Shown piece by piece: positions 51-62,732 of a DNA stretch of 64,000 nt. A program made the translations under genes and the position numbers. Below the pieces are notes generated by a model. The model saw nothing but the letters and a program-made list of their open reading frames with translations, was not told where the DNA came from and made no database searches. This stretch comes from Geodermatophilus sp. DSM 44513 (GTDB taxonomy: Bacteria; Actinomycetota; Actinomycetes; Mycobacteriales; Geodermatophilaceae): assembly GCF_032460525.1 (NCBI RefSeq), contig NZ_CP135963.1, positions 434,001 through 498,000 on the forward strand, read 5' to 3'. The first letter of the stretch is position 1. Every line of letters begins with the position of its first letter.

Positions 51-356
51 GGCCGCGCGCTCGCCGGCGAGACGCCGGGGGCCGGTCGTGGTGGCGCGGG
101 TGCTCGTGCTCTGCCCACGGTGGTGGGCAGAGCACGAGTGTCCACGAGCAGGGGTGCTGGCCGCCGTCCCGACCCGGCATGGACGGCGCCGCCGTCCGCG
201 CGGGGTGGTGTGGGGGCGGGGGGCCGGTCCTGGCGGTCTGGCCGCGTTGGTCGATCCACCCAGCGTTGGGTGGCCACTCGTTGCCGGCTGCCCCCGCCCG
301 TGACCACTGTGACCCCGGTCACTCCCGCCGGTCAAGACCGGCCCCGGCGTGTCGGC
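51..356. other. Gene-free stretch holding one 36-bp palindrome
   Basis: No convincing coding region lies between the truncated upstream gene and the convergent oxidase gene that ends at 357. The only structure I see is the 36-bp palindrome at 103-138. The open frames that cross this stretch look like high-GC artefacts, without a plausible ribosome binding site or family resemblance. Confidence 0.6.
103..138. repeat. 36-bp dispersed palindrome, copy 1
   Basis: Left arm CTCGTGCTCTGCCCAC, 4-nt loop GGTG, and a perfect 16-bp complementary right arm. The same 36-bp element occurs at 10870, 23938, 24003, 50844, 62631 and 62697. Here it lies 53 bp downstream of a stop codon. Confidence 0.95.
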
Positions 357-1676
357 TCAGCCGACCCGCCGCAGCACGTCCGGGGTGAGCTGGCCGACGG
401 CGGTGTGCCCGGTGAGCCCCAGCGTCAGGTCGAACTCGCCCAGCACGTCGGACACCACCTGGCGCACGCCCTCCTCGCCGGCCAGGGCCAGCCCCCACGC
501 GTACGGCCGGCCGAGCAGCACCGCCCGGGCGCCGAGGGCCACCGCGGTGAGCACGTCGGCGCCGCTGCGCACCCCGCTGTCCAGCAGCACCGGTGCGCGG
601 TCGCCGACCGCGGCCACCACCTCGGGCAGGGCGTCCAGCGCGGCGATCGAGCGGTCCACCTGCCGGCCGCCGTGGGTGCTGACCACCACGCCGTCCACGC
701 CCTCGTCCACCGCCCGCCGCGCGTCGTCGGGGTGCAGCACCCCCTTGAGCACGATCGGCAGCCGGGTGCGGGCCCGAAGCCACGCCAGGTCGGCCCAGGT
801 GATCGAGGGCCGGGAGTAGATGGACAGGAAGGTCTCGACGGCGGCCCGGGGCAGCGGGGAGCGCAGGTTGTCCAGCAGCGGGCCCGGCCAGGCCCGCGCC
901 ATGCCGACCAGCGCCCGGACGGCGGACAGCGTCGGCCGGGGCTGGCGGTCCCGCCGCGCCGCGGCGCCCGGCTCGGTGGGTGCGGGGGCGGCGGCGCGCT
1001 CCCGGACCAGCCGCCGGAACACCGGGTCGGAGGTGTACTGCGCGATGCCCTTCCCCAGCGCGAAGGGCAGGTGGCCCAGGTCCAGGTCGCGGGGGCGCCA
1101 GCCGAGCATCGTGGTGTCCAGGGTGACCACCAGCGCGTCGCAGCCGCTGGCCTCCGCCCGCCCGACCAGGCTCTCCACCAGCTCGTCGGACGTCGACCAG
1201 TACAGCTGGGACCACCGCGGGGCGGGGTGGGGGGCCTGGTCCATCGCCGCGGCGCACTCCTCCATGGGCACCGAGGCCTGGTTGGAGAAGACCATCGGCA
1301 CCCCGAGGGACGCCGCGGCGCGGGCGACCGCGAGGTCGGCGGCCGGGTGCACCAGCTCCAGCGCCCCGACCGGGCCGAGCAGCAGCGGGGCGGGCAGCCG
1401 CCGGCCGAGGAGCTCCACCGAGGTGTCCCGGGCGCTGACGTCGCGCAGCACCCGGGGGACGAGGACCCAGCGGTCGAAGGCGGCGCGGTTGGCCCGCTGG
1501 GTGGCCTCCTCGCCGGCCCCACCCGCGACGTAGGCGTACGCCCGGGCCCCCAGCCGCGCGCGGGCGCGGCGCTGCAGCGCCCGCGCGGCGGTGGGCACGA
1601 GCGGCCGGCGCCCGTACACCCCCGCGCGGTAGACCTCGTCCTGCCGGCGGCGACCGGTGCCCGCTGCTGAGTCCAC
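357..1676 (-). CDS. FMN-dependent alpha-hydroxy-acid dehydrogenase (lactate 2-monooxygenase-like)
   Basis: A 439-aa TIM-barrel flavoprotein of the family that oxidises L-2-hydroxy acids such as lactate to 2-oxo acids. Visible marks are the N-terminal [14 protein letters not shown] stretch (around residues 45-60), [18 protein letters not shown] in the middle, and the active-site block STHGGRQVD. The His and Arg of that block are the family's catalytic base and substrate-binding residue. The FMN-phosphate segment [20 protein letters not shown] follows. The length and the long insert before the active-site block resemble lactate 2-monooxygenase more than the shorter lactate dehydrogenase LldD. 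The exact substrate cannot be read from sequence. The start is GTG; the gene is divergent from the secreted protein gene at 1861 and stands alone. Confidence 0.88.
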
Positions 1677-1860
1677 GGGGGCACCGTAGTGAGCGCGGGA
1701 TCACAGCCCGTCGCGCGGGGCGGCCCCGACTCTCCGCCGACACGCCGGGGCGACACGCGCCACCGGCGTGGGATCGGACCACCTCGGGCCCGGTCACCTG
1801 CATCATGGTCGGCACCGGGGCGCCGTCGGCACCTCGGCGCGGCAGCAGGGGGACGTGCAC

Positions 1861-2514
1861 GTGCAGGTGGCCACCAGGCCGGCACCCGTGGCGGTGCTCG
1901 GTGTCCTGTCCGCCGCGCTGTTCTGCGCCGGTGTCGCCCTGGCCGGCCCCGCGGCCGCCGTCGACCACGCGGCGCTCCCCGACGCCCGCGTCACCCACGG
2001 CCCCAGCTGCCGGCCGGGCGGGGTGGTCGTCGAGGTGACCGCCGGCACCGCCGGCTACGCGGTCACGCTGGCGACCGTGCGCCGTCCCGCAGGGGAGGAC
2101 GCCGCCGAGCTCGCCCCGGGTGCCGTGGTCGTGCTGCGCACGGGGCCGGTCGACTGGGGGGAGACCGTCGACCCGTACCTGGAGTACGTCCCGCTGGACG
2201 GTTCGGGCCCCGGCCACGTCGACGACCTGACCGGCTTCGACTTCACCCGCCCGGCGGCCGGGGAGTGCGCCGCCATCTCCGGTGCCGCGGTGGTGCCCGC
2301 GCTGGAGGGGCCGTCGGGCGGGGATCCCGCGGGGTCGCCGGTCGTCACCGTCGCCACCCAGCAGGTCTCTGCCGGGGAGGACGGCGAGAGCCGCTGGCCG
2401 CTGCTCGCCGCCGGCGGGGTGCTGCTCGCCGCGGGTGCCGGGGCCGCGGTCGTCTCCGGGAGCCGCCGGCCGGGTGGCCGCCCGCGGTCGTCGCCGCCCC
2501 TCGGGAGCGCCTGA
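1861..2514 (+). CDS. Secreted, C-terminally anchored protein of unknown function
   Basis: A 217-aa protein I do not recognise. It opens with a typical Sec signal peptide (about residues 1-33, hydrophobic LGVLSAALFCAGVALAG, then a PAAA cleavage region). A polar extracellular domain of about 140 residues with two cysteines (in SCRPG and GECAA) follows. It ends with a hydrophobic segment (WPLLAAGGVLLAAGAGAAVV) and an arginine-rich tail, so it is probably membrane-anchored with the domain outside. The cysteines may form a disulfide. I chose GTG 1861 because a purine-rich AGGGGGAC lies about 8 nt upstream; GTG 1855 and an ATG further up are less well placed. The MarR gene follows 25 bp downstream on the same strand. 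Confidence 0.7.
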   Translation: MQVATRPAPVAVLGVLSAALFCAGVALAGPAAAVDHAALPDARVTHGPSCRPGGVVVEVTAGTAGYAVTLATVRRPAGEDAAELAPGAVVVLRTGPVDWGETVDPYLEYVPLDGSGPGHVDDLTGFDFTRPAAGECAAISGAAVVPALEGPSGGDPAGSPVVTVATQQVSAGEDGESRWPLLAAGGVLLAAGAGAAVVSGSRRPGGRPRSSPPLGSA

Positions 2515-2539
2515 GCGCGCCGTCGGCGACGATGGACCG

Positions 2540-3055
2540 GTGGCCCGCCCCGACGACGTCCCGGCGCTCGACGTGACCGCCGGGCCGGTCCCCGGGGACG
2601 TGGCCGACGTCCCCGGCGTGGCGCCGACCCCGGCCGAGACGTGGCTGCGCATCGTGCAGGTGCACGACCGGATCACCCGCCGCGTCGACTCCGCGCTGCA
2701 CCGGCGGCACGACCTCTCCCTCACCGGGTACGAGGCACTGCGGCGGATCGCCGAGGCGCCCGGCGAGCGGGCCTCCATGGGCGAGGTGGCCGAGGCGCTC
2801 GGCATCTCGCGGGCCGGGGTGACCAGCACGGTGACCCGCCTGGTGGCCGGGGGCTACGTCGTCCGTGAGCGGTCCTCCGGCGACCGGCGGCTGCTGCACG
2901 CCCGGCTCACCCCCGCCGGCCGGGCCAAGGTCGAGGACGCCCGGCTGACCCACGACGGCCTGGTGGCCCACCTGCTCACCCTGCTGGGGGACGACGCCGC
3001 CGTGGTCACCGACGCCCTCGCCCGGGTGTCCGCCGCCGCCCGCACCCGCCGCTGA
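2540..3055 (+). CDS. MarR-family transcriptional regulator
   Basis: A 171-aa protein whose C-terminal 130 residues form a MarR winged helix-turn-helix. It has a recognition region MGEVAEALGISRAGVTSTV, then the wing residues VRERSSGDRRLLHARLT, which include the D-R-R turn typical of the family. Such proteins bind DNA as dimers and usually repress nearby or divergent genes, often releasing on small phenolic ligands. The acidic first ~35 residues are not part of the domain, and GTG 2600 or 2618 are possible later starts. It follows the secreted protein gene closely and may be cotranscribed. A hairpin of the second dispersed family sits directly after its stop. Confidence 0.85.
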   Translation: MARPDDVPALDVTAGPVPGDVADVPGVAPTPAETWLRIVQVHDRITRRVDSALHRRHDLSLTGYEALRRIAEAPGERASMGEVAEALGISRAGVTSTVTRLVAGGYVVRERSSGDRRLLHARLTPAGRAKVEDARLTHDGLVAHLLTLLGDDAAVVTDALARVSAAARTRR

Positions 3056-3059
3056 CGAA

Positions 3060-3115
3060 GGACCCCCCTGCCCCCCACCACTCGCACGCTCGCGGCGGGG
3101 CCCTGCAGGGGGGCC
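3060..3115 (+). terminator. Stop-proximal GC hairpin, family 2 copy A
   Basis: Arms CCCCCCTGC (3063-3071) and GCAGGGGGG (3105-3113) are extended by GG/CC and enclose a core CTCGCACGCTCGCGGCG. It begins 5 nt after the marR stop. Related hairpins follow recR (32609) and the oligopeptide ATPase gene (38875). It has no U-tract, so a terminator role is inferred from position and structure. Confidence 0.6.
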
Positions 3116-3187
3116 ACCTGCAGACGGGTGGCGGTCACTTCAAGCCCGTAGTGTTTCCGCTACACCCGGGGCGGGCAGGACGCGATC

Positions 3188-4687
3188 ATGCAGGGAGGGC
3201 TCGCGCAGTGCTCGGTGGTCGTGCCGACGGTCGGCCGGCCGTCGCTCGACGTGCTGCTCGACGCCCTCGCCCGGGCCCCGGGTCCGCGCCCGGCCGAGCT
3301 GGTGCTGGTCGACGACCGGCCCGCCGGTGGGCCGCTGAGCCCGGAGCGCCCCGGGCTGCCGCCGGTGCGGGTGCTGCGCACCGGCGGCGGCGGTCCGGCC
3401 CGCGCCCGCAACCTCGGCTGGCGGAGCGTGCGCACCGCCTGGGTGGCCTTCCTCGACGACGACGTGGTCCCCGACCCCGACTGGTACCAGCGGCTGGCCG
3501 CTGACCTCACGGCCCTCGCTCCGGACGTGGCCGGCAGCCAGGGCCGGGTGCGGGTGCCCCTGCCGGCCGACCGCCGCCCCACCGACTGGGAGCGCGGCAC
3601 CGCCGGGCTGGCCACCAGCTCCTGGATCACCGCCGACCTCGCCTACCGGCGCAGCGCGCTGGCCGCGGTCGGCGGCTTCGACGAGCGCTTCCCCCGCGCC
3701 TTCCGCGAGGACTCCGACCTGGCGCTGCGGGTCATGGACACCGGCGCCCGGCTGGTCCGCGGGCAGCGGTGGATCACCCACCCGGTCCGCCCGGTCGACC
3801 GCTGGGTGAGCCTGCGCGTGCAGGCGGGCAACGCCGACGACGTCCTCATGCGCCGGCTGCACGGCCGCGACTGGCGGGAGCGCGCCGACGCCCCGCTGGG
3901 CCGCCGCCCCCAGCACCTGGCGGTGACCGCGGCCGCGCTGGCCGCGGTCGGGCTCGCCGTGGCCCGCCGGCCGCGCGCCGCCGCGCTGGCCGCGCTCGCC
4001 TGGGCCGCCGGCACCGCCGAGTTCGCCTGGGCCCGGATCGCCCCCGGCCCGCGGGACCGCGCCGAGGTGACCACCATGCTGGCCACCAGCGCGCTCATCC
4101 CGCCGCTGGCCACCGGGCACTGGCTGCGCGGCGTCGTCCGGCACGTCGGCGTGCGCCCCTGGCGGGGGCTGCCCGACCTGGTGCTGTTCGACCGCGACGG
4201 CACCCTGGTCCGCGACTACCCGTACAACGGCGACCCGGAGTTCGTGCGGCCGGTGCCCGGCGCGCGGGAGGCCGTCGACGCGCTGCGCGCCCGCGGCGTG
4301 CGGCTCGGCGTGGTGAGCAACCAGTCCGGCGTGGCCCGGGGGCTCATCACCCGCGCGCAGGTGGACGCCTGCATGGCCCGGCTCGAGGAGCTGCTCGGCC
4401 CGTTCGAGACGATCCAGGTCTGCCCGCACGGCCCGGACGACGGCTGCTCGTGCCGCAAGCCCGCCCCCGGCATGGTCAAGGCCGCCTGCGCCGAGCTGGA
4501 CGTCGACCCGGCGCGCACCGTGGTCGTCGGCGACATCGGCGCGGACGTCGAGGCGGCCGCCGCGGCCGGGGCGGTCGGTGTCCTCGTCCCGACCCCGGTC
4601 ACCAGGACGGCGGAGATCGCCGCCGCCCCGCTCGCGGTGCGCTCGCTCGCCGAGGCCGTGGACCTCGTCCTGGCGGGGGAGTGGTGA
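3188..4687 (+). CDS. Fusion: family 2 glycosyltransferase + GmhB-type heptose bisphosphate phosphatase
   Basis: A 499-aa two-enzyme protein. Residues about 1-210 are a GT2 (GT-A fold) transferase: CSVVVPT strand, LVLVDDRP, the DxD-like FLDDDVVPDPDWY, and FREDSDLALRV near its end. Hydrophobic stretches at about 240-310 suggest membrane association. Residues about 330-499 are a HAD-IIIA phosphatase of the GmhB type: nucleophile motif LFDRDGTLV, VSNQSGVARG, the zinc-loop cysteines and histidine in CPHGPDDGCSCRKPAPGM, and VVGDIGADVEAA. GmhB removes the C7 phosphate from D-glycero-D-manno-heptose 1,7-bisphosphate. This is the first gene of a run of seven with 4-nt overlaps, so the phosphatase fits with GmhA and HldE downstream. 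The two domains are normally separate proteins. The acceptor of the GT2 domain is unknown. Confidence 0.88.
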   Translation: MQGGLAQCSVVVPTVGRPSLDVLLDALARAPGPRPAELVLVDDRPAGGPLSPERPGLPPVRVLRTGGGGPARARNLGWRSVRTAWVAFLDDDVVPDPDWYQRLAADLTALAPDVAGSQGRVRVPLPADRRPTDWERGTAGLATSSWITADLAYRRSALAAVGGFDERFPRAFREDSDLALRVMDTGARLVRGQRWITHPVRPVDRWVSLRVQAGNADDVLMRRLHGRDWRERADAPLGRRPQHLAVTAAALAAVGLAVARRPRAAALAALAWAAGTAEFAWARIAPGPRDRAEVTTMLATSALIPPLATGHWLRGVVRHVGVRPWRGLPDLVLFDRDGTLVRDYPYNGDPEFVRPVPGAREAVDALRARGVRLGVVSNQSGVARGLITRAQVDACMARLEELLGPFETIQVCPHGPDDGCSCRKPAPGMVKAACAELDVDPARTVVVGDIGADVEAAAAAGAVGVLVPTPVTRTAEIAAAPLAVRSLAEAVDLVLAGEW

Positions 4688-5685
4688 CCGGCACCGTCCT
4701 GGTCGCCCGGCTGGACTCCGTCGGCGACGTGCTGGTCCAGGGCCCCCTGGTGCGCGCGGTCGCGCACGGCGCCGACCGGGTCGTCTTCCTGGCCGGCCCG
4801 GCCGGGGCCGAGGCGGCCCGCCTGCTGCCCGGGGTCGACGAGGTGTGGACGTGGGCCTGCCCGTGGATCCTCGGCGACCCCCCGACGGTCGACGCCGACG
4901 ACCTGGCCGCGCTGACCGGGCGGGTGCGGGCGTTGGCGCCCGACGCGGCGGTCATCAGCACGTCGTTCCACCAGTCGCCGCTGCCGCTCGCGCTGCTGCT
5001 GCGCGCCGCCGGGGTGCCGCGCATCTCGGCGACCAGCGTCGACTACCCCGGCGCGCTGCTCGACGTCCGCCACCGGGTCGACGACGACGTCCCGGAGCCC
5101 GAGCGGGCGCTGTCCCTGGCCCGCGCCGCCGGCTTCGACCTGCCGGCCGGCGACGACGGCCGGCTCGCCGTCCGCCGGCCCCTGCCGCCGGTGCCGCAGG
5201 AGCCGGGCTACGTCGTCCTGCACCCGGGGGCCAGCGTCCCGGCCCGGGCCTGGCCGGCGCACCGCTGCGCGGAGGCGGTCGAGGCGCTGGCCGACGCCGG
5301 CCACCGGGTGCTGGTCACCGGCGGGCCGGGGGAGCGGGCGCTCAGCGCGGCCGTCGCCGGCACCCGGGGCGTCGACCTCGGCGGTGCCCTGGACCTCGCC
5401 GGGCTGGCCGCCGTGCTCGACGGTGCCGCCGCGGTCGTCGTCGGCAACACCGGCCCGGCGCACCTGGCCGCCGCCGTCGGGACGCCGGTCGTCTCGCTGT
5501 TCTCCCCGGTCGTCCCGGCCGCGCGGTGGGCCCCGTACGGCGTGCCCACGGTGCTGCTCGGCGACCAGGACGCCCCCTGCCGGCTGACCCGGGCCCGCGC
5601 GTGCCCGGTGGCCGGCCACCCGTGCCTGACGTCGGTGACCGCGGCCGACGTCGTGGCCGCAGTCGAGAAGGTGGTCGCCGCGTGA
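4684..5685 (+). CDS. Family 9 glycosyltransferase (heptosyltransferase-like)
   Basis: A 333-aa GT-B enzyme of family GT9, which contains the LPS heptosyltransferases that use ADP-heptose. Visible are the N-terminal VARLDSVGDVLVQGPLVRAV, the mid-protein VVLHPGASVPARAWP that opens the donor-binding domain, and VVVGNTGPAHLAAAVGTPVVSLF, the family's D/N-TG-xx-HLA-A signature. A cysteine-containing C-terminal segment (CRLTRARACPVAGHPCL), common in heptosyltransferases, follows. GTG 4684 overlaps the upstream stop by 4 nt. This organism type has no LPS, so the acceptor is unknown. Linkage to heptose synthesis genes supports a heptose donor. Confidence 0.85.
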   Translation: MTGTVLVARLDSVGDVLVQGPLVRAVAHGADRVVFLAGPAGAEAARLLPGVDEVWTWACPWILGDPPTVDADDLAALTGRVRALAPDAAVISTSFHQSPLPLALLLRAAGVPRISATSVDYPGALLDVRHRVDDDVPEPERALSLARAAGFDLPAGDDGRLAVRRPLPPVPQEPGYVVLHPGASVPARAWPAHRCAEAVEALADAGHRVLVTGGPGERALSAAVAGTRGVDLGGALDLAGLAAVLDGAAAVVVGNTGPAHLAAAVGTPVVSLFSPVVPAARWAPYGVPTVLLGDQDAPCRLTRARACPVAGHPCLTSVTAADVVAAVEKVVAA

Positions 5686-6662
5686 GGGTCCTGCTCTGGC
5701 ACGTGCACGGCTCGTGGACGACGGCGTTCGTCCAGGGCCGGCACGAGTACCTGCTGCCCGTCGTCCCCGGCCGGGGCCCCGACGGGCTCGGCCGGGCGCG
5801 CACCTGGGACTGGCCGGCGTCCGCCCGCGAGGTGACGCCGGAGCAGCTGCGCGACGAGCACGTCGACGTGGTCGTCCTGCAGCGGACCCGCGACCTGCAG
5901 TTGGTGCGGCAGTGGCTGGGCCGCGAGCCCGGCCGCGACCTGCCCGCGGTCTTCCTGGAGCACAACGCGCCGGGGCTGGAGCCCGACGACGGGCCGGTGC
6001 CGCACACCCGCCACCCGCTGGCCGACCAGGACCGCATCCCGATCGTCCACGTCACGCACTTCAACGAGCTGTTCTACGACAACGGCCGCGCCCCCACGAC
6101 GGTGGTCGAGCACGGCGTCGTTGACCCCGGCGAGCGCTGGACCGGTGAGCTGGCCCGCGCCGCCGTCGTCACCAACGACCCGGTCCGCCGGGGCCGCACC
6201 GTGGGCGCCGACCTGCTGCCCGGCCTGGCCGCGGTCGCGCCGGTCGACGTCTTCGGCATGGGGCTGGCCGGGCTGCACGAGCGCCACGGCCTGGACCCCC
6301 ACCGGGTCGTGCTGCACGACGACCCGCCGCAGGCGGCCATGCACGCCGAGCTGGCCCGCCGCCGGGTCTACGTGCACCCGGTCCGGTGGACCTCGCTGGG
6401 GCTCTCGCTGATCGAGGCGATGCAGCTGGGCATGCCGGTGGCCGCGCTGGCCACCACCGAGGTGGTCGAGGCGGTGCCGGCCGAGGCTGGTGTCGTCTCC
6501 ACCCGGCCGGCCGTCCTGTGGGACGCCGTCCGCACCTGGCTGCACGACGAGGACGCCGCCCGATCAGCAGGCGAGGCGGCCCGCGCTGCCGCGCTGGAGC
6601 GGTACGGGCTGCTGCGGTTCCTCGCCGACTGGGACGCGCTGCTGGAGGAGGTGGTCCGGTGA
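5682..6662 (+). CDS. Family 4-type glycosyltransferase
   Basis: A 326-aa GT-B glycosyltransferase with a recognisable C-terminal donor half: VDVFGMGLAGL, then VHPVRWTSLGLSLIEAMQLGMPVAALATTEVVEAVP, the E-x7-E region that grips the nucleotide sugar in GT4. The N-terminal half is less typical, with short elements such as VFLEHNAPGLEP where other GT4 enzymes have longer acceptor domains. It starts at GTG 5682, overlapping the GT9 stop by 4 nt, and is overlapped in turn by the next GT4 gene. It presumably adds one sugar to the same heptose-containing glycan. Donor and linkage cannot be predicted. Confidence 0.8.
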   Translation: MRVLLWHVHGSWTTAFVQGRHEYLLPVVPGRGPDGLGRARTWDWPASAREVTPEQLRDEHVDVVVLQRTRDLQLVRQWLGREPGRDLPAVFLEHNAPGLEPDDGPVPHTRHPLADQDRIPIVHVTHFNELFYDNGRAPTTVVEHGVVDPGERWTGELARAAVVTNDPVRRGRTVGADLLPGLAAVAPVDVFGMGLAGLHERHGLDPHRVVLHDDPPQAAMHAELARRRVYVHPVRWTSLGLSLIEAMQLGMPVAALATTEVVEAVPAEAGVVSTRPAVLWDAVRTWLHDEDAARSAGEAARAAALERYGLLRFLADWDALLEEVVR

Positions 6663-7861
6663 TCGTGGACCTGGTCAGCGAGCACGCCAGCCCGCTCGCC
6701 GCCATCGGCGGGGTGGACGCCGGCGGGCAGAACGTGCACGTCGCCGCCCTGGCCGCGGGCCTGGCCCGCCGCGGGCACACGGTGACCGTGCACACCCGCC
6801 GGGAGGACCCGGACGCCCCCGACCGGGTGACCACCGCCGACGGCTACGACGTCGCACACGTCGCCGCGGGCCCCGAGCGGGTGCTGCAGAAGGACGCGCT
6901 CCTGCGGCACATGCCGGAGTTCGCCTCCGTGCTGCGCCGGGAGTGGGCGCGGCGGCCCCCGGACTTGGTGCACGCGCACTTCTGGATGAGCGGGCTGGCC
7001 GCGGTCGCCGCCGCGGGGCCGGTGCCGGTCCTGCAGACCTTCCACGCGCTGGGCTCGGTCAAGCGCCGCCACCAGGGCGTCGCCGACACCTCCCCGCCGA
7101 ACCGCGTCGAGCTGGAGCGGTCGCTGTGCCGCACCGTCGCACACGTGGTGGCCACCTGCTCCGACGAGGTCTTCGAGCTGCGCCGGCTGGGCCTGGACAG
7201 CGACCGCGCCTCGATCGTGCCCTGCGGCGTGGACACCGCGGTGTTCACCCCGCGCGGCCCGGTGGCCCCCCGCGGGGAGCGGGCGCGGCTGCTGGTCCTC
7301 GGCCGGCTGGTCGAGCGCAAGGGCCAGGAGGACGCCGTCCGCGCGCTGGCCGCCGTCCCCGGTGCGGAGCTGGTCGTCGTCGGCGGCCCGCCGGCCGGCC
7401 GGCTGGACGACGACCCGGAGGTGCGCCGGCTGCGCGCGGTCGCCGCCTCCCTCGGTGTCGCCGACCGGCTCGTGTTCACCGGCGCCGTGGCCCGGGCCGA
7501 CGTCCCGGCCTGGATCCGCTCGGCCGACGTGGTGCTCGCCGTGCCCTGGTACGAGCCGTTCGGCATCACCCCGCTGGAGGCGATGGCCTGCGGCCGCCCC
7601 GTGGTCGCCACCGCGGTCGGCGGGCTGCAGGACTCCGTCGCCGACGGCGTCACCGGCGAGCTGGTGCCGCCGCGGGACCCCGTCCGGCTGGGCGCGGTGC
7701 TCTCGGCGCTGCTCGCCGACGACGCCCGCCGCGCCGTGTACGGCGCGGCCGGCGTCCGGCGCGCCCGCGCCCGCTACCGGTGGGCCCGCGTGGTCGCCGA
7801 CACCGAGTCCGTCTACCGGCAGGTCCTGGCCCGCCGCACCCCCGTGGAGGTCGCCCGATGA
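6659..7861 (+). CDS. Family 4 glycosyltransferase (MshA/sucrose-synthase-like)
   Basis: A 400-aa GT4 enzyme. The N-terminal domain has GGVDAGGQNVHVAALAAGLARRGH, close to the donor-loop pattern of MshA and sucrose-phosphate synthases. It is followed by DLVHAHFWMSG and TFHALGSVKRRHQG. The C-terminal donor domain has IVPCGVDTAVFTP, VLGRLVERKG and WYEPFGITPLEAMACGRPVVATAVGG with the E-x7-E residues. Similar enzymes transfer sugars from UDP or GDP donors with retention. Its place between another GT4 and gmhA, with 4-nt overlaps on both sides, argues for work on the heptose glycan rather than on mycothiol. Confidence 0.85.
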   Translation: MIVDLVSEHASPLAAIGGVDAGGQNVHVAALAAGLARRGHTVTVHTRREDPDAPDRVTTADGYDVAHVAAGPERVLQKDALLRHMPEFASVLRREWARRPPDLVHAHFWMSGLAAVAAAGPVPVLQTFHALGSVKRRHQGVADTSPPNRVELERSLCRTVAHVVATCSDEVFELRRLGLDSDRASIVPCGVDTAVFTPRGPVAPRGERARLLVLGRLVERKGQEDAVRALAAVPGAELVVVGGPPAGRLDDDPEVRRLRAVAASLGVADRLVFTGAVARADVPAWIRSADVVLAVPWYEPFGITPLEAMACGRPVVATAVGGLQDSVADGVTGELVPPRDPVRLGAVLSALLADDARRAVYGAAGVRRARARYRWARVVADTESVYRQVLARRTPVEVAR

Positions 7862-9884: not shown

Positions 9885-10864
9885 AGCCGCCCCCGGACCG
9901 CCCTTGTCGCGATATTGGCGCCCGGGAGGGGCGCCCCGTCGCGGTGGTGCTGCGGCCGTTGGGGCTGGGCGACCTGCTGACCGGCGTCCCGGCGATCCGG
10001 GCGGTGCGGGCCGCGGTGCCCGGCCACCGGCTGGTGCTGGCCACCACCGCGGCCCTGGCGCCGCTGGCCGGGCTGGTCGACGCCGTCGACGAGGTGCTGC
10101 CCGCCCGGGAGCTCGAGCCGCTGGACTGGCCCGGCCCGCCCCCGGAGCTCGCCGTCGACCTGCACGGCAGGGGCCCGGCCTCGCACGTCGTCGTCGCCGA
10201 CCTGCACCCCGAGCGGCTGCTCACCTTCGCCAGCCCCGGCTGGCCGGGACCGGAGTGGCACCCCGACGAGCACGAGGTGCAGCGCTGGTGCCGGCTGGTG
10301 GCCGAGGGGCTGGGGGTCGACGCCGACCCGGACGCACTCGACCTCGCCGTGCCCGACGTGGGCCCGCCGGCGCCGGCGGGCGTGGCCCTGGTGCACCCGG
10401 GGGCGGCGTTCTCCTCCCGGCGCTGGCCGGCCGACCGGTTCGCCGCCGTCGCCCGGCACCTCGCCGACCGCGGTCTGGACGTGCGCGTCACCGGGAGCCC
10501 GGCCGAGGTGCCGCTCGCCCGCTCGGTGGCAGACGGCGCCGGGCTGGGGGAGGACGCCGTCCTGGCCGGGCGGACGACGACCCTCGAGCTGGCCGCCGTC
10601 GTCGCCGGCGCCCGCGTCGTGGTCAGCGGCGACACCGGCCTGGCCCACCTGGCGACCGCCTACCGCCGCCCGTCGGTGGTGCTGTTCGGACCGGTGTCAC
10701 CGGCGCTGTGGGGGCCCCCGCCGAGGGCCTCGCGGCACGGACCACTGCACGTCGTCCTCTGGCACGGGGACGGCACCGGCGACCCCTGGGGCACCGCGCT
10801 GGACCCCGCGCTGGCCCGGGTCACCGTCGCGGAGGTGACCGCCGTGCTGGACGGGTTGCTCTGA
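9881..10864 (+). CDS. Second family 9 glycosyltransferase (heptosyltransferase-like)
   Basis: A 327-aa GT9 enzyme and the last gene of the heptose operon. Marks are VVLRPLGLGDLLTGVPAIRAV near the N-terminus, VALVHPGAAFSSRRWPADRFAAV at the domain boundary, and VVVSGDTGLAHLATAYRRPSVVLFGPVSPALWG, the GT9 donor signature with the aspartate present. GTG 9881 overlaps the hldE stop by 4 nt, which is why I prefer it to GTG codons near 9940, although the first ~18 residues are outside the conserved domain. Six bases after the stop lies a 36-bp palindrome. The protein probably adds a second heptose or ends the glycan. Confidence 0.85.
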   Translation: MKPPPDRPCRDIGAREGRPVAVVLRPLGLGDLLTGVPAIRAVRAAVPGHRLVLATTAALAPLAGLVDAVDEVLPARELEPLDWPGPPPELAVDLHGRGPASHVVVADLHPERLLTFASPGWPGPEWHPDEHEVQRWCRLVAEGLGVDADPDALDLAVPDVGPPAPAGVALVHPGAAFSSRRWPADRFAAVARHLADRGLDVRVTGSPAEVPLARSVADGAGLGEDAVLAGRTTTLELAAVVAGARVVVSGDTGLAHLATAYRRPSVVLFGPVSPALWGPPPRASRHGPLHVVLWHGDGTGDPWGTALDPALARVTVAEVTAVLDGLL

Positions 10865-10869
10865 GCACG

Positions 10870-10905
10870 CTCGTGCTCTGCCCACCACCGTGGGCAGAGC
10901 ACGAC
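10870..10905. repeat. 36-bp dispersed palindrome, copy 2
   Basis: The element is in the orientation with loop CACC; the last base of the right arm is C instead of G, so 15 of 16 pairs remain. It begins 6 nt after the stop of the heptose operon and precedes a convergent gene. A terminator-like role is possible by position. Confidence 0.93.
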
Positions 10906-11006
10906 TCTCCCAGGGCGGAACAGGCCGGCCGGGACGCCACCCGGCCGAGGTGGACCGATCGCGGGGACCGGAACGATCGTGATGTGGGCAACGGCTCACC
11001 GCTGGC

Positions 11007-13853: not shown

Positions 13854-13862
13854 AGGCTCAGG

Positions 13863-23905: not shown

Positions 23906-23937
23906 CCCGGTCTCCGGCCCACCTCTCCCGGTGGGAG

Positions 23938-23973
23938 CTCGTGCTCTGCCCACGGTGGTGGGCAGAGCACGAG
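23938..23973. repeat. 36-bp dispersed palindrome, copy 3
   Basis: Perfect 16-bp arms with loop GGTG, identical to copy 1. Flanks GGGAG and CTCCC extend the stem to 21 bp (23933-23978). It forms a doublet with copy 4, start to start 65 nt. Confidence 0.95.
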
Positions 23974-24002
23974 CTCCCCGGGACCAGGTCGGTGGCGGTC
24001 CC

Positions 24003-24038
24003 CTCGTGCTCCGCCCACGGTGGTGGGCATAGCACGAG
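24003..24038. repeat. 36-bp dispersed palindrome, copy 4 (degenerate)
   Basis: Two of 36 bases differ from copy 1 (position 10 T to C, position 28 G to T), giving two mismatched pairs in the stem. The element ends 18 bp before the tadA start codon, so in mRNA it could lie in the tadA 5' region. Confidence 0.93.
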
Positions 24039-24056
24039 CACCGCCGGGGTCACCTG

Positions 24057-24531: not shown

Positions 24532-24619
24532 GGTGGCGTGTCCGAGCGGCCGAAGGAGCACGCCTCGAAAGCGTGTGAGGTGCAAGCCTCCGTGGGTTCA
24601 AATCCCACCGCCACCGCCA
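24532..24619 (+). tRNA. tRNA-Ser (anticodon CGA)
   Basis: The acceptor stem GGTGGCG pairs with CGCCACC (24609-24615), discriminator G, and the CCA end is encoded. The anticodon loop CTCGAAA gives CGA, reading UCG. A long class II variable arm follows (GTGAGGTGCAAGCCTCC), and the T arm is GTGGGTTCAAATCCCAC. Confidence 0.97.
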
Positions 24620-26838: not shown

Positions 26839-27001
26839 GGGGGCTGCTCTCCTGTCCTCGGCGCGCGCCGTGTTCTCGACGCACGGGGCCAGGGTGCCCT
26901 AGACGGCGCGGGCCTGACCACCCGGCGCCGCCGTCCGGGGGACACCGCGCGGGGTGCCGCGGCCGGCCGGCCCGACCGGCCCGGTATCGTCGGGCCCCGT
27001 T

Positions 27002-27086
27002 GGAGGATTCGCCTAGTGGCCTATGGCGCTCGCTTGGAAAGCGGGTTGGGGGCAACCCCTCGGGAGTTCGAATCTCCCATCCTCCG
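27002..27086 (+). tRNA. tRNA-Ser (anticodon GGA)
   Basis: Acceptor stem GGAGGAT/ATCCTCC (27079-27085), discriminator G, no encoded CCA. The anticodon loop TTGGAAA gives GGA, reading UCC and UCU. The long variable arm is TTGGGGGCAACCCCTC, with T arm GGGAGTTCGAATCTCCC. Confidence 0.97.
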
Positions 27087-27092
27087 CCCGCT

Positions 27093-28264: not shown

Positions 28265-28363
28265 GGCGCAGACCCCTCGTGCGGCGTCACCCCGTGAACC
28301 TCCCCAGGGCCGGAAGGCAGCAAGGATAAGCGGGCTCTGGCGGGTGCGCGGGGGGTCCCTCGC
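28265..28363 (+). ncRNA. ffs: Small bacterial signal recognition particle RNA (4.5S)
   Basis: The conserved SRP apical domain is present: AGGGCCGGAAGGCAGCAAGG (GGAA tetraloop and asymmetric loop that bind Ffh), followed by CGGGCTCTGGCGGG pairing back. GACCCC (28271-28276) pairs with GGGGTC (28352-28357) to close the long hairpin. The ends are estimates. It guides Ffh to membrane-protein nascent chains. Position before dnaX is common in actinobacteria. Confidence 0.93.
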
Positions 28364-48968: not shown

Positions 48969-48976
48969 CGGAGCTG

Positions 48977-50785: not shown

Positions 50786-50843
50786 GCGGGCCCCGCCCGG
50801 GTCGCGGCCGGCCCTCCCTGGAGGCCACCTCTCCCCGCGGACG

Positions 50844-50879
50844 CTCGTGCTCTGCCCACCGTGGTGGGCAGAGCACGAG
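50844..50879. repeat. 36-bp dispersed palindrome, copy 5
   Basis: Perfect 16-bp arms with loop CGTG. Flanks GACG and CGTC extend the stem to 20 bp with bases different from those flanking copy 3, so the flanks change together. It lies between convergent genes, 58 bp after the ABC-F stop and 27 bp from the other stop. Confidence 0.95.
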
Positions 50880-50906
50880 CGTCGCGCGGGGGAGGGTCGC
50901 CGGGGG

Positions 50907-51746: not shown

Positions 51747-51753
51747 GCGCGTC

Positions 51754-53582: not shown

Positions 53583-53700
53583 GGGGCGGGCCCCAGCGAC
53601 GAGGCCGGGCCCACCGGGCCTGCCGGGTAGACTGATCACCGCGCCGGCCGTCGCCCGACCGACGTCCGGTGTCCCCGCGCCCTGCGACTCCCGGAGACAC

Positions 53701-56574: not shown

Positions 56575-57056
56575 CCCCGACGATCGTGCTGCCGCTGATG
56601 ATCGGCGGGCTCTACGCAGCGGGGGTCTACCTGCTGCTGGACCGCAGCCTGACCCGGGTCCTGCTCGGCTTCGTGCTGCTGGGCAACGCCACCAACCTGC
56701 TGCTGCTCTCCAGCGGCGGGCCGGCGGGCCTGGCGCCGATCCTCGGCTACTCCGACCCCGAGCAGATCAACGACCCGCTGCCGCAGGCCCTGGTCCTCAC
56801 CGCGATCGTGATCACCTTCGGCGTCTCGGCGTTCCTGCTGGCGATCATCCACCGCTCCTGGCGGCTGGCCCGCAACGAGGCCGTGGGGCTGGACGAGGAG
56901 GACCGCCGGGTCGCCGCCGGCCGGGCCACCGACGCCGACGAGGTCGACCCCGACGACCTGTCCCCGGAGGACCGCGCGGCCATGCACGTCGACACCCTGG
57001 CCGCCGACGGCGGGGTGCCGGCCGACGACGTCGACCTGCCCGCGGGTGCCCGGTGA
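56571..57056 (+). CDS. mrpC: Na+/H+ antiporter subunit MrpC
   Basis: A 161-aa NuoK-like subunit with three membrane segments: LPLMIGGLYAAGVYLLLDRSL, LLGFVLLGNATNLLLLSSGG and ALVLTAIVITFGVSAFLLAII. LTAIVITFG is a hallmark of MrpC. A ~50-residue acidic cytoplasmic tail follows (EEDRRVAAGRATDADEVDPDD and on), longer than in the Bacillus protein. The ATG overlaps the mrpA stop (ATGA), and mrpD overlaps in turn. Confidence 0.94.
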   Translation: MTPTIVLPLMIGGLYAAGVYLLLDRSLTRVLLGFVLLGNATNLLLLSSGGPAGLAPILGYSDPEQINDPLPQALVLTAIVITFGVSAFLLAIIHRSWRLARNEAVGLDEEDRRVAAGRATDADEVDPDDLSPEDRAAMHVDTLAADGGVPADDVDLPAGAR

Positions 57057-58735
57057 TCGACGTCCTCGCGCCGCTGCCGGTGCTGCTCCCGCTGCTGGGG
57101 GCGGCCGGGGCGCTGCTGGTCTCCGGGCACCCGGGGGTACAGCGCGCCCTGAGCACGACCGTGCTCGTCGCGGTGCTCGCCGTCTCGGTGGCCCTGCTGT
57201 TCGTCGCCGACGCCGAGGGTGCCGCCTCGGTGTCGGTCGGCGGCTGGCCGGTGCCGCTGGGCATCGTGCTGGTCGTCGACCGGCTGTCGGCGCTGATGCT
57301 GGTGGTCGCCTCGACCGTGGCGCTCGGCGTCCTGGTCTTCGCCGTCGGGCAGGGCTCCGCCGACGGGGACGAGGGCACCCCGGTGTCTATCTTCCACCCG
57401 ACGTTCCTGGTGCTGATCGCGGGCGTGGGCAACGCCTTCCTCGCCGGCGACCTGTTCAACCTCTACGTCGGCTTCGAGATCCTGCTGATGGCCTCCTACG
57501 TGCTGCTCACCCTCGGCGGCACCGCGGCGCGCATCCGCGGCGGCGTCACCTACATCGTCGTGAGCCTGACCAGCTCCCTGGTGTTCCTCGCCGCGATCGG
57601 CCTGGTCTACGCCGCCACGGGCACGGTGAACATGGCCCAGCTGGCGGTGCGGCTGGGCGAGCTGCCCGACGGCCTGCAGGTGCTGCTGCAGTCGATGCTG
57701 CTCATCGCCTTCGGCATCAAGGCCGCGGTCTTCCCGCTGTCGGCCTGGCTGCCCGACAGCTACCCGACCGCCCCCGCGCCGGTCACCGCCGTGTTCGCCG
57801 GCCTGCTCACCAAGGTCGGCGTGTACGCGATCATCCGGACGCAGACGCTGCTGTTCCCGGACGGCGCGCTGGACGACCTGCTGCTGTGGGCGGCGCTGGC
57901 GACCATGCTCATCGGCATCCTCGGGGCGGTGGCGCAGAGCGACCTGCGCCGGATGCTGTCGTTCACCCTGGTCAGCCACATCGGCTACATGGTGTTCGGC
58001 ATCGCCCTGGGGACGGCGGCCGGGCTGGCCGGCGCGGTCTTCTACGTCACCCACCACATCGCCATCCAGACCACGCTGTTCCTCGTCGCCGGGCTGGTGG
58101 AGCGCCAGGGCGGGACGACGTCGGTGGACCGCCTCGGCGGCCTGGCCCGGCGCTCCCCGCTGCTGGCGGTGCTGTTCCTGGTGCCCGCGCTGAACCTCGC
58201 CGGCATCCCCCCGATGTCGGGCTTCATCGGCAAGCTGGGACTGCTGCAGGCCGGCGTCGCCGACGGCAGCCCGGGGGCGTTCACCCTGGTGGCCGGCGGG
58301 GTGCTGACCAGCCTGCTCACGCTGCTGGCGGTCGCCCGCGTCTGGATCCGCGCCTTCTGGCGGTCCCCCAGCCAGCCCCCGGCCGAGGACACCGCCGCGG
58401 CCGCGGTCGCCGACGCGACGTCCCGACGGCGGCCGTCCGGCGACGGCGCGACACCCTCCGACGGGCCGCGCACCCCCCTGCAGGACGCGTGGCGCCGGCA
58501 CACGGCGGTGGCCACGGCCAGCCGGCCGGACCTGCCGCCGGCCGCGGCGGCGACCCGGGCGCTGCGCCCGCTGCCCCGGACGATGGTGGGTGCCACCGTG
58601 GCCCTGGTCTCCCTCACCGTGGCCCTCACCGGGCTGGCCGGGCCGCTGTACGGGCTGGCCGACCGGGCCTCGGGCGACCTCCTGGACCGCTCGCCCTACG
58701 TCACCTCGGTGTTCGGGACGGAGCCGATCCCGTGA
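57053..58735 (+). CDS. mrpD: Na+/H+ antiporter subunit MrpD
   Basis: A 560-aa NuoM/N-like subunit with about fourteen membrane segments. Signature pieces are LFNLYVGFEILLMASYVLLTLGG, IAFGIKAAVFPLSAWLPDSYPTAPAPVTAVFAGLLTKVGVYAIIRT with conserved lysines, and RMLSFTLVSHIGYMVFGI. A hydrophilic insert (about residues 445-510, Ala/Arg/Pro-rich) before the last membrane segment is unusual in length. GTG 57053 overlaps the mrpC stop by 4 nt. Confidence 0.94.
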   Translation: MIDVLAPLPVLLPLLGAAGALLVSGHPGVQRALSTTVLVAVLAVSVALLFVADAEGAASVSVGGWPVPLGIVLVVDRLSALMLVVASTVALGVLVFAVGQGSADGDEGTPVSIFHPTFLVLIAGVGNAFLAGDLFNLYVGFEILLMASYVLLTLGGTAARIRGGVTYIVVSLTSSLVFLAAIGLVYAATGTVNMAQLAVRLGELPDGLQVLLQSMLLIAFGIKAAVFPLSAWLPDSYPTAPAPVTAVFAGLLTKVGVYAIIRTQTLLFPDGALDDLLLWAALATMLIGILGAVAQSDLRRMLSFTLVSHIGYMVFGIALGTAAGLAGAVFYVTHHIAIQTTLFLVAGLVERQGGTTSVDRLGGLARRSPLLAVLFLVPALNLAGIPPMSGFIGKLGLLQAGVADGSPGAFTLVAGGVLTSLLTLLAVARVWIRAFWRSPSQPPAEDTAAAAVADATSRRRPSGDGATPSDGPRTPLQDAWRRHTAVATASRPDLPPAAAATRALRPLPRTMVGATVALVSLTVALTGLAGPLYGLADRASGDLLDRSPYVTSVFGTEPIP

Positions 58736-59295
58736 CCGTCGAACCGGCCGCCACCCGGCTGCGCCACCAGCTCCCGCTGGTCGTCTGGCTGGTCGTGGTG
58801 TGGATGCTGCTGTGGGGCACGCCGTCCTGGGCGAACCTGCTCTCCGGCGTGCTGGTGGCGCTCGTCGTGCTGACGGTGCTGCCACTGCCGCCGGTGGTCG
58901 GCGGTGCCCGCGTGCGCCCGCTGCCGCTGCTGGTCTTCCTCGGTCACTTCCTGGTCGAGCTGGTCGTCTCCGGCGCGCAGGTGGCCTGGCAGGCGCTGCG
59001 GCCCGGCGGGGTGTCCAGCACGGCCATCCTGCGGGTCCAGCTGCGCGTGGACTCCGACCTGCTGCTGACCATGGTCGCCGAGGCGATCTCGCTGGTACCC
59101 GGGTCGCTGGTGCTCGACCTGGACCGGGAGCAGCGGGTGATGACCCTGCACGTGCTGCCCGCGCGCGACCTGGACGACGTCCGGCGGAAGAAGGCGCACG
59201 TGCTGGTCGTCGAGGAGCGGCTGGTCCGGGCGTTCGGCTCGGCCGACGACCTGGCAGCCATCGAGCGGCGGGAGGATCGGGTGCAGGCGCCGTGA
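58732..59295 (+). CDS. mrpE: Na+/H+ antiporter subunit MrpE
   Basis: A 187-aa subunit with two membrane segments near the start (QLPLVVWLVVVWMLLWGTPSW and LLSGVLVALVVLTVLPL) and a third hydrophobic piece (LPLLVFLGHFLVELVVSGAQVAW). The cytoplasmic domain has DSDLLLTMVAEAISLVPGSLVLDLDREQRVMTLHVL, the usual MrpE core. It is the part of Mrp complexes not shared with respiratory complex I. GTG with 4-nt overlap. Confidence 0.93.
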   Translation: MTVEPAATRLRHQLPLVVWLVVVWMLLWGTPSWANLLSGVLVALVVLTVLPLPPVVGGARVRPLPLLVFLGHFLVELVVSGAQVAWQALRPGGVSSTAILRVQLRVDSDLLLTMVAEAISLVPGSLVLDLDREQRVMTLHVLPARDLDDVRRKKAHVLVVEERLVRAFGSADDLAAIERREDRVQAP

Positions 59296-59617
59296 TCGTG
59301 GTGGAGGTCGCGCTGTACGCGCTGATCGGCGGGGGAGCGCTGCTGGCGCTGGTCCGGCTGGCGCGCGGGCCCTCGCTGCTGGACCGGGTGGTCGCCACCG
59401 ACACCCTGCTGGTCATCATCGCGGCCGGCCTGGCGGTGCACGCCGCGCTGGTGCGGGACCCGACGCTGGTGCCGGTGCTGGTCGTGGTCTCGCTGCTGGC
59501 CTTCGTCGGGTCGGTGTCGGTCGCCCGCTACGTCGGCGGGATGATGCTGCGCTCGGGCACCGGCGACGGCCGGGACGTCGGCCGGCCGGTGGCGGCCGAG
59601 GAGGGGCAGGGCCGGTC

Positions 59618-59621
<4 letters not shown>
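59292..59621 (+). CDS. mrpF: Na+/H+ antiporter subunit MrpF
   Basis: A 109-aa small subunit with three membrane segments: VVEVALYALIGGGALLALVRLARGPS, DRVVATDTLLVIIAAGLAVHAAL and VPVLVVVSLLAFVGSVSVARYV. The RLxRGPSxxDRVVATDT stretch is the MrpF signature. A short polar tail follows. GTG start and 4-nt overlaps on both sides. Confidence 0.93.
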
Positions 59622-61862
<2,241 letters not shown>

Positions 61863-61884
<22 letters not shown>

Positions 61885-61910
61885 CGGGTAAGCAGGAGGC
61901 TGCCGCGCAC
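61863..61910 (-). CDS. leuL: leuA leader peptide
   Basis: A 15-codon frame, GTG start, reads VRGSLLLTRRGEALS and stops with TAG. It has three leucine codons in a row (CTC CTG CTT) and a fourth near the end, the hallmark of leucine attenuation. A TACGGT -10-like hexamer (61922-61917) is spaced so that transcription would begin at the GTG, so the leader is probably leaderless. Starvation for charged leucyl-tRNA would stall the ribosome on the leucine run and change folding of the hairpin at 61844-61884. Known actinobacterial leuA leaders have the same layout. Confidence 0.75.
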
Positions 61911-61916
61911 ACGGTC

Positions 61917-61922
61917 ACCGTA
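61917..61922 (-). promoter_or_regulatory. Possible -10 box of the leuA leader transcript
   Basis: Read on the minus strand, TACGGT ends 6 nt before the leader GTG (61910), fitting TANNNT with the start of transcription at the GTG. No convincing -35 element is visible 17 nt further up. Confidence 0.4.
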
Positions 61923-62026
61923 GCAGCGCGTCAGCCGAGGTCGCAGCCACACGGGCAGCCGGCGGCGTGCCGTGGCGGACCCGAGCCGTCGTCGACCTCG
62001 TCGCACGCCCCGGGACAGGCGCAGGT

Positions 62027-62572
62027 CTAGCCGTCCTCGACGTCCCGGGACTCCCCGGCCAGGAACCGCCGCCGCCGCTCCCGGGCGACGGCCAGCCAGC
62101 GCGCGTCCAGCCGGGCCTCGGCCCGTTCCCGGGGGGAGTCGCCGGGCTGCGGCCGCTGGTGGTCCTCCGGTGTGCCCTGCACCCGCCGGACGGCGTCGCG
62201 CAGGTCGCGGCGGCGGTCGAAGGTGTACCAGGGGTCCTGGGGGTCGCGGCCGTGCTGCCCGAGCGCGTACCACCACCGGTCGTCGCCGTGGCGGGTGTCG
62301 AGGTGGGCGGGGTAGAACCGGCCGCCCTCGTCGCGGACCGCGTCGGCGTCCATGCCGGCCGCCTCCCGGCCCTCGGCGTCCAGCAGCGCCAGCCGCAGCC
62401 CGGCCAGCTCCGCGGCCCGTGCCAGGACCCGCGCGTCCATCCCCGAGCGGCCGCTCTCGACTGCCGCGACGGCGGACTTCGACACGCCGACCCGGGCCGC
62501 GAGCTCCCGCTGGGAGAGGTCGGCGACCCGGCGGATGCGGCGCACCAGGCCGCTGAGCTGGTCGTCGGTCAC
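62027..62572 (-). CDS. XRE-type helix-turn-helix regulator
   Basis: A 181-aa protein. The N-terminal ~65 residues are a Cro/C1-type HTH: LVRRIRRVADLSQRELAARVGVSKSAVAAVESGRSGMD, in which helices 2 and 3 and the ESGR turn are clear. The rest is charged and unusual, rich in Arg, Asp, Trp and Tyr (DDRWWYALGQHGRDPQDPWYTFDRRRDLRDAVRR), and ends with a basic helix (RWLAVARERRRRFLAGESRDVEDG). I do not recognise the C-terminal part. GTG 62572 is the best start though no ribosome site is visible. Two 36-bp palindromes lie just upstream, between it and the phospholipase D gene. Confidence 0.8.
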   Translation of the reverse strand: MTDDQLSGLVRRIRRVADLSQRELAARVGVSKSAVAAVESGRSGMDARVLARAAELAGLRLALLDAEGREAAGMDADAVRDEGGRFYPAHLDTRHGDDRWWYALGQHGRDPQDPWYTFDRRRDLRDAVRRVQGTPEDHQRPQPGDSPRERAEARLDARWLAVARERRRRFLAGESRDVEDG

Positions 62573-62630
62573 CGCCCGAGCATCCGGGCCGGTGGCGGCG
62601 CGCGGGGGTCGGCGTGTCCACCTGGGGAAG

Positions 62631-62666
62631 CTCGTGCTCTGCCCACAGTGCTGGGCAGAGCACGAG
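62631..62666. repeat. 36-bp dispersed palindrome, copy 6
   Basis: Arms pair over 15 bp (CTCGTGCTCTGCCCA and its complement) around CAGTGC; the right arm starts TGGGC. It forms a doublet with copy 7, start to start 66 nt, much like copies 3 and 4 (65 nt). Confidence 0.95.
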
Positions 62667-62696
62667 CTGCCGGAGGTGGTAGATGGCCGGCCGCCC

Positions 62697-62732
62697 TTCG
62701 TGCTCTGCCCACGGTGCTGGGCAGAGCACGAG
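62697..62732. repeat. 36-bp dispersed palindrome, copy 7
   Basis: The first base is T instead of C, otherwise the arms pair over 14 bp around a 6-nt loop ACGGTG-like centre. Second member of the doublet upstream of the XRE-type gene. Confidence 0.93.

Follow-up and report, generated by a model that had tools for sequence, protein, structure and literature searches.

Seven near-identical palindromes of 36 bp occur within a 64,000-nucleotide stretch of DNA from Geodermatophilus sp. DSM 44513 (the window), and the question raised by this locus is what keeps their arms so nearly constant. An initial annotation had counted seven copies with almost identical arms, all outside genes and mostly just after stop codons, and had named three main options: spread in the manner of REP/REPIN elements, a site bound by a protein, and a mobile terminator. 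All seven copies were verified at the coordinates given below. Allowing up to three mismatches, the 16-bp arm matches the window 14 times, and these matches are both arms of the seven copies; dinucleotide shuffles of the window contain a mean of 2.26 such matches, and none of 100 shuffles reaches 14. Genes were called using our own codon-based caller and are uncurated. On these calls the seven copies do all lie outside genes, and five of them bear out the described proximity to stop codons.

Copies, distribution and placement

Weak symmetric conservation extends about 15 bp past the core on each side, giving a unit of approximately 65 bp. No strand is assigned to the copies. Copy 1 (103..138, unit ~88–153) lies in a convergent gap with a stop codon 54 bp away, and copy 2 (10870..10905, unit ~10855–10920) in a convergent gap with a stop codon ~6 bp away. 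Copies 3 (23938..23973, unit ~23923–23988) and 4 (24003..24038, unit ~23988–24053) form a doublet in a gap with a HAD hydrolase gene on one side and a deaminase gene on the other; copy 3 is 33 bp past the stop codon, while copy 4, which has one mismatch in each arm, is 99 bp from the stop with the next start 20 bp further on. Copy 5 (50844..50879, unit ~50829–50894) is in a convergent gap with stops at 28 and 59 bp. Copies 6 (62631..62666, unit ~62616–62681) and 7 (62697..62732, unit ~62682–62747) form another doublet. Copy 6 lies 164 bp past the stop of a minus-strand gene at 62830 and 59 bp ahead of the start of the minus-strand gene 62027–62572; for copy 7, the farther from this start, the distances are 98 and 125 bp.

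The initial annotation had suggested counting the arm in the complete genome and mapping the copies relative to stop codons. The whole genome (4.63 Mb) contains 16 copies, of which eight are clustered within 150 kb (347–497 kb), and there are three doublets with members 62–66 bp apart. The arms in this genome occur as palindromes and not singly. Strong matches to a model of the palindrome were seen in the bacterium's own family only, Geodermatophilaceae according to the named records shown; per-genome counts from this model are lower bounds, at most 48 candidates being scored in each genome. The number of proposed operators is approximately 10 to 36 per genome.

A first placement count took 138 copies, from which 12 edge copies and one in-gene copy were removed. 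Among 116 loci, 49 are in convergent gaps against 18.2 expected from gap length, and seven are in divergent gaps against 42.2 expected, the background being derived from the same loci. For sites in tandem gaps the median distances to the stop and the start are 33 and 84 bp. The mapping bears out a preference for 3′ ends, with convergent gaps enriched and divergent gaps depleted. Copy 24003 is absent from the exact-arm counts (the first placement count and the comparison of spacers below) because exact arms were required.

The helix-turn-helix gene and the palindrome family

The minus-strand gene that adjoins copies 6 and 7 (62027..62572) encodes a 181-residue XRE-family helix-turn-helix (HTH) protein, which we propose as the cognate of the palindromes. 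It matches PF13560 and PF01381 above the cut-off and no other Pfam domain. The fold matches of its structural model are XRE proteins (best E 2.3e-3), with no Foldseek match at E ≤ 0.001. The model's C-terminal part is predicted with low confidence and has no fold match, and sequence matches to solved structures cover the HTH domain only. The protein does not have the conserved Cys-rich tail of its homologues of 211–216 residues, and the gene evolves fast among homologues.

An operator upstream of the regulator's own gene is a mark of XRE systems, and an upstream hairpin is common here: such a structure (stem of at least 11 bp, CTCTG-like core, no more than 320 bp upstream) precedes the HTH homologue at 79 of 90 loci, with exactly CTCTG at 67. 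Six syntenic stretches served as a control; 14 of their 417 genes have such an upstream hairpin (exactly CTCTG in 12), HTH genes and the 23938 locus being themselves among those counted. The scans for the HTH and HAD genes covered 108 genomes of the family. The 90 loci are the listed matches down to E ~1e-32, with two pieces in G043 counted as one and weaker partial matches left out (for example on G005 contig 7 and G020 contig 191).

The gene and the palindromes also tend to occur together. In a set of 90 genomes of at least 90% completeness from genera other than g5–g7, six or more model matches are found in 68 of the 76 that have an HTH orthologue and in three of the 14 that lack one (Fisher p 4.9e-7, a test that ignores phylogeny, and with the HTH gene's own site adding to the count). 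The exceptions are eight genomes with the orthologue and fewer than six matches, and three without it (G054, G105 and G008, with 16, 9 and 8 matches). Two genomes carry two HTH paralogues, and each has two main palindrome families, each corresponding to the site upstream of one paralogue. In G087 the 25 pattern matches comprise nine of CCCCC type, 12 of CTGCC type, one CTCAC and three that are unpaired and chance-like; in G106 the 26 matches comprise 12 of CTC(C/A)C type, 10 of CCCAC type, two CGTAC, one CTGCC and one CCTCA. The reversed pattern gave four and five matches respectively.

The HAD-gene locus (copies 3 and 4 in the window) provides an unlinked comparison. Here G011 and G103, which gave no stop, were dropped; a hairpin was scored in 47 of the remaining 88. 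The arm at this locus agrees with the HTH-upstream arm of the same genome at 0.875, compared to 0.726 for orthologous arms from the same genus and 0.705 for those from different genera (40 genomes); none of 5000 within-genus permutations reaches the observed value. Unlinked copies in one genome are therefore more alike than orthologous copies, and these alignments show that the stem drifts species-wide. We consider it highly probable, from these comparisons of sequence, that the HTH protein pairs with the palindrome family. The identification of a probable cognate protein is the new finding here.

The recognition helix and the inner triplet

Across 78 HTH–site pairs (one of 79, from G033, was misaligned and was dropped before the covariation and code analyses), a single residue of the recognition helix tracks the inner triplet of the palindrome. 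This is residue 29 in the numbering of those two analyses, corresponding to Lys32 of the window protein. CCC is paired with Lys in 36 of 36 cases from seven genera; AGT with Gln in six of seven and His in the other; CTC or CTT with Ala, Thr, Pro, Ser or Val in 19 of 19; and GCG or GTG with Arg in five of five. Among about 2000 residue-by-base tests, the highest score is that of this recognition-helix residue (z 13.4 against 300 within-genus permutations). In the 434 repressor, as proposed here, the residues that contact DNA are at the start of the recognition helix. Residues beyond the recognition helix also score in the covariation tests, and shared ancestry may therefore supply part of the signal.

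At the HAD-gene locus, the triplet predicted from this residue is present in 34 of 46 genomes, against a mean of 18.6 and a maximum of 28 in 5000 permutations; the other 12 break the code. The Arg class was extended by GCT once the data had been seen, and leaving out the four GCT genomes gives a count of 30. As in XRE regulators, whose recognition-helix residues set the operator sequence, the covariation, the code and the prediction at a second locus all connect the helix to the site, and across these genomes the residue-to-base code is shown.

A proposed operator role and its alternatives

We propose that the palindromes are operators of an XRE-family, phage-repressor-like protein, and as a whole we regard this reading as probable; a roadblock or insulator role is a more tentative part of it. 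The palindromes look like landing sites of the protein, and not like common repeats or plain stop signals, because their letters change in step with a neighboring DNA-binding protein. Of the options in the initial annotation, it is the protein-binding site that gains strong support, from the paralogue families, the drift, the residue code, the prediction at the HAD locus and the upstream hairpins. Each palindrome would be occupied by a dimer of the 62027–62572 product, in which both recognition helices read the inner triplets CCC/GGG via Lys32; the central “loop” would be an uncontacted spacer of nearly fixed length, and the outer bases (TCGTG) are probably read by C-terminal residues. The HTH gene would control itself through the operators upstream of its own start. 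We infer this physical binding, the dimer geometry and the auto-control. On this reading the protein co-evolves with its sites as lock and key, and paralogues have diverged into separate families of this kind inside one genome. A dimer bound behind genes may block transcription from both directions: a roadblock or insulator seems the most likely role because the sites favor gene 3′ ends over divergent promoter gaps, and we suggest it tentatively from this placement. A fuller version, in which a fast-evolving repressor-like protein and its long operators form a genome-wide system of protein-gated two-way terminators, the operator set being recoded in each species with one helix and split into orthogonal sets when the gene duplicates, is speculative and rather doubtful.

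A different account is that these are REP/REPIN-like mobile palindromes with the HTH protein as their mobilizer, or part of one, in the fashion of RAYTs. RAYT genes are reported to have cognate REPs alongside, to co-evolve with them, to evolve fast and to have a presence tied to repeat number, and REPs usually exceed 100 copies per genome (PMC2817692). The pattern matches: here too intergenic palindromes stand beside a co-evolving, fast-evolving gene and the repeat number follows the gene; the doublet spacing of about one unit, the weakly conserved ~65-bp unit, and the lack of a hairpin in the adjacent-orthologue gaps for copy 10870 in G048, G062 and G051 point the same way. However, a search for Y1_Tnp (PF01797) that was positive in five of 14 control genomes gave no match in the bacterium's own genome, the protein beside the repeats is an XRE HTH protein with no other Pfam domain, and the copies number 16 rather than more than 100; the RAYT-type REP option of the initial annotation is not supported, given the transposase search and the copy number. 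In addition, at two loci the site and its flanking genes are conserved across genera, and central spacers differ freely among exact-arm copies, which copying of whole units would not give. REPs are also described in PMC3733652 as bearing a GTAG or CGTC tag at one end; none stands out in the consensus, taken by eye, of a 56-row alignment with 16-bp flanks. We judge mobile palindromes improbable. The same holds for two-way RNA hairpin terminators whose sequence is conserved by shared descent, with the HTH link secondary. Their 3′-end placement and the high predicted stability of the hairpins (for two copies, about −70 kcal/mol) fit the intrinsic-terminator pattern of a GC-rich hairpin just past stop codons, and unrelated hairpins occur in G047 at the site orthologous to copy 5 and near the neighbor gene of copy 1. 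The G062 counterpart of copy 5 (50844) has diverged in sequence with its pairing retained, so that a structural constraint is favored there. Pairing in the flanks exceeds within-genome permutation only at +1, +3 and +4 (p 0.02, 0.0015 and 0.04; 12 positions tested), which lends weak support to the earlier suggestion that folding is selected. The core argues against it: among copies prefiltered for pairing, 21 deviations are in a single arm and unpaired, compared to two with both arms changed and still paired and two with both changed and unpaired. There is also no T-rich tract after the stem, the maximum number of T per 8 nt downstream being not above a random control, and a stem required only to pair would have no reason to conserve ~13 bp of sequence in both arms, to drift species-wide, to split into two families by paralogue or to track an HTH residue. 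Two equal half-sites can explain much of the symmetry. The conserved ~15-bp flanks and some flank pairing go beyond what a simple operator explains.

Chromosome-organizing sites like those of SlmA, Noc and MatP, whose 3′-end placement would arise merely from avoidance of promoters, would account for the local clusters, such as the eight of 16 copies inside 150 kb, and for a depletion near the terminus: in five complete genomes, six of 84 loci are in the terminus-proximal quarter against 21 for a uniform distribution (KS p 1.7e-4 when pooled, with loci that are not independent because of common descent, and with 12 loci used from an incomplete list for G007). The KS p values of single genomes are 0.04–0.35 and the origin half is not enriched (47 of 84), so the origin–terminus bias is weak and a role of this kind seems quite unlikely. 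Other identities were considered and rejected. Against an origin from a phage, virus or plasmid, the exact-arm pattern gave no viral contig, and blastn of one copy gave no phage record and only two weak matches to Corynebacterium plasmids (E 0.3). The window's matches above gathering score to known RNA families are SRP RNA and one tRNA only, and PADLOC matches to defense systems cover just the HTH domain (best E 1.6e-7). Searches of the literature by title and abstract found nothing on these palindromes in Geodermatophilus and its relatives, and those for XRE proteins with co-evolving palindromes or for Geodermatophilus XRE proteins also found nothing.

Under the operator reading, the closest relatives are XRE regulators and phage repressors such as HipB, P22 c2 and C.AhdI, which share the XRE-like HTH, by Pfam and fold, and the proposed dimer on an inverted repeat whose spacer is not contacted. 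They differ in that here there are approximately 10 to 36 long operators, with half-sites of 13–16 bp, placed mainly at gene 3′ ends, and in that the C-terminal domain has no recognized fold and usually carries a Cys-rich tail. The family would be an apparent natural experiment, in which a DNA-binding protein and its dispersed sites jointly shift specificity; there are many solved versions in different species, and duplicated, apparently orthogonal pairs in single genomes. It also suggests that REP-like behavior, with intergenic palindromes and a co-evolving neighbor gene, is possible without a transposase. If the 3′-end role is true, it would amount to a protein-based marking of gene ends in very GC-rich bacteria, in which terminators are poorly understood.

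A last comparison is with the uptake-sequence terminators of Haemophilus and Neisseria, which, as described in PMC1852404, are a fixed sequence in inverted pairs at gene ends. The palindromes are alike in this. An uptake sequence was rejected because the copy number (16) is too low; it is far below that of uptake sequences, and the arms stand here in palindromes rather than singly.

Palindrome anatomy and distribution

All seven 36-bp palindromes (window positions 103, 10870, 23938, 24003, 50844, 62631 and 62697) were present exactly where the initial annotation had placed them. Both arms carry the core TCGTGCTCTGCCC around a central spacer, which in the 179 copies read is 8 bp long in 165, 9 bp in 12, and 5 bp and 7 bp once each; the flanks have a weak symmetric consensus of about 15 bp. 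A covariance model derived from an alignment of 56 copies found 16 palindromes in the 4.63-Mb genome of strain DSM 44513, each matched on both strands, the weakest scoring 44.6 bits on its better strand versus 17.7 bits for the next match. Half of the 16 (eight) fall within the interval 347–497 kb, and there are three doublets with copies 62–66 bp apart; doublet matches abut at about 65 bp in other complete genomes too. In G047 (G numbers denote genomes of the same family), the spacer measures 9 bp in 13 of 22 copies. In G024, two intact arms of one palindrome lie about 240 bp apart (locus L041, 1501–1754), which would fit an insertion of about 205 bp into the spacer.

Within Geodermatophilaceae the model matched 88 of 108 genomes. 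An order-wide search with stricter filters matched 50 of 298 genomes, 43 of them from this family, and the seven outside it have one or two matches each (best E-values 1.1e-5 to 9.7e-4). An exact-pattern scan of named genomes returned at least 120 stretches with the palindrome, and the matches listed (80 of these stretches) all belong to Geodermatophilus, Blastococcus, Trujillonella or Modestobacter.

Conserved loci and drift of the stems

The doublet 23938/24003, between HAD-hydrolase and deaminase genes (the HAD locus), and the doublet 62631/62697, between a PLD-domain gene and a helix-turn-helix (HTH) gene, are flanked by these genes in other species and genera as well; on this sequence comparison, both loci are old. 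Copies also come and go, since the gap corresponding to that of copy 10870 holds no hairpin in three related species. The counterpart of copy 50844 in G062 has an altered sequence yet remains paired. At the orthologous site in G047 there is an unrelated 15-bp hairpin.

The hairpin at the HAD locus persists in other species with different arms (TCGGCCTCTGCCC, TCCGTCTCTGCCC, TCGTGCTCTGCTT, TCGTGCTCTGAGT, TAGTGCTCTGGCT and more), of which CTCTG is the most stable part. With a search pattern that leaves the inner part of the arm free, the inner type is species-specific and common to unlinked places, for example AGTC in all seven copies of G025 and CCCGC in all five of G038. Within one genome, the HAD and HTH loci agree at 0.875 (40 genomes), a value reached by none of 5000 within-genus permutations; agreement between orthologous copies in genomes of one genus is lower, at 0.726. 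Among the copies of a single genome, spacer sequences vary freely. This speaks against plain duplication of whole units and in favour of a factor that recognises the arms.

The HTH protein as candidate factor

The HTH gene (62027–62572, minus strand) adjoins copies 62631 and 62697, and its product has an XRE domain and a conserved central part. At 181 residues it is without the Cys-rich tail conserved in most of the aligned homologues of 211–216 residues. In the same genomes, with genus g8 left out, evolution is faster in the HTH than in the HAD protein, at typical identities of 50–72% and 77–92%, respectively. A palindrome-type hairpin lies upstream of 79 of 90 HTH homologues, versus 14 of 417 control genes, and HTH orthologues and palindromes co-occur, with exceptions in both directions. 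In genomes with two HTH genes, the upstream palindrome types are unlike in most pairs seen, and in G087 and G106 nearly every palindrome in the genome matches one or the other of the types that precede the two genes. The second gene lies about 23–28 kb from the first in G087, G106, G092, G100, G101 and G102 (genus g9), in most cases with a different palindrome type upstream.

The highest-scoring of about 2000 covariation tests, run on 78 pairs of an HTH protein with the site upstream of its gene, linked one residue at the start of the recognition helix (Lys32 here; 29 in alignment numbering, where the reference begins at residue 4) to the inner triplet. CCC goes with Lys in 36/36 pairs from seven genera, AGT with Gln in 6/7, CTC or CTT with a small or non-polar residue in 19/19, and GCG or GTG with Arg in 5/5. 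It makes chemical sense for Lys to go with G-rich triplets and Gln with those containing A, and the residue presumably occupies the position of the base-contacting Gln28 of 434 repressor. Residue 34, which is 37 in the numbering of the window protein, likewise tracks the inner triplet, and C-terminal residues 101 and 106–108 track an outer base. For the HAD locus, the inner triplet expected from residue 32 (window numbering) was the one present in 34 of 46 genomes versus 18.6 by permutation, four of the 34 resting on a class member added post hoc to data already seen.

Placement and proposed mechanism

The palindromes would be operators read by an XRE dimer with its two recognition helices on one face of the DNA. 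Such an arrangement fits the geometry of the sites, where 8 bp separate the two triplets and their centres are about 11 bp from each other; it would leave the spacer free in sequence and fixed in length, as observed. Some pairing in the flanking bases and the altered but paired counterpart in G062 suggest that a pairing constraint, or a palindrome-correcting tendency, adds to the reading by protein. The initial annotation had offered REP/REPIN-like spread, and the palindromes and HTH protein do resemble REP-RAYT pairs (palindromes with a Y1_Tnp transposase) in behaviour, as described in PMC2817692. In the membership tests that were run, however, they differed from such a pair, and this REP-like family is better read as putative operators for an XRE protein that co-evolves with them.

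The window and 120 relatives' loci contain 138 exact-arm copies: 66 occupy tandem gaps, 51 convergent gaps and 8 divergent gaps, while 12 are at the edge of a locus and one is within a called gene. Counting each doublet once, the 116 loci comprise 60 tandem, 49 convergent and 7 divergent, versus 55.6, 18.2 and 42.2 expected by gap length from background gaps in the same loci. The stop is closer than the start for 54 of the 66 tandem-gap copies. This placement at 3′ ends suggests that the operators may act as a transcription roadblock or insulator; a role in chromosome layout is the weaker alternative. In five complete genomes, the terminus-proximal quarter is poor in palindromes (6 of 84 loci). 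The window also holds genes for SRP RNA (28268–28363) and two tRNA-Ser (24532–24619 and 27001–27089).
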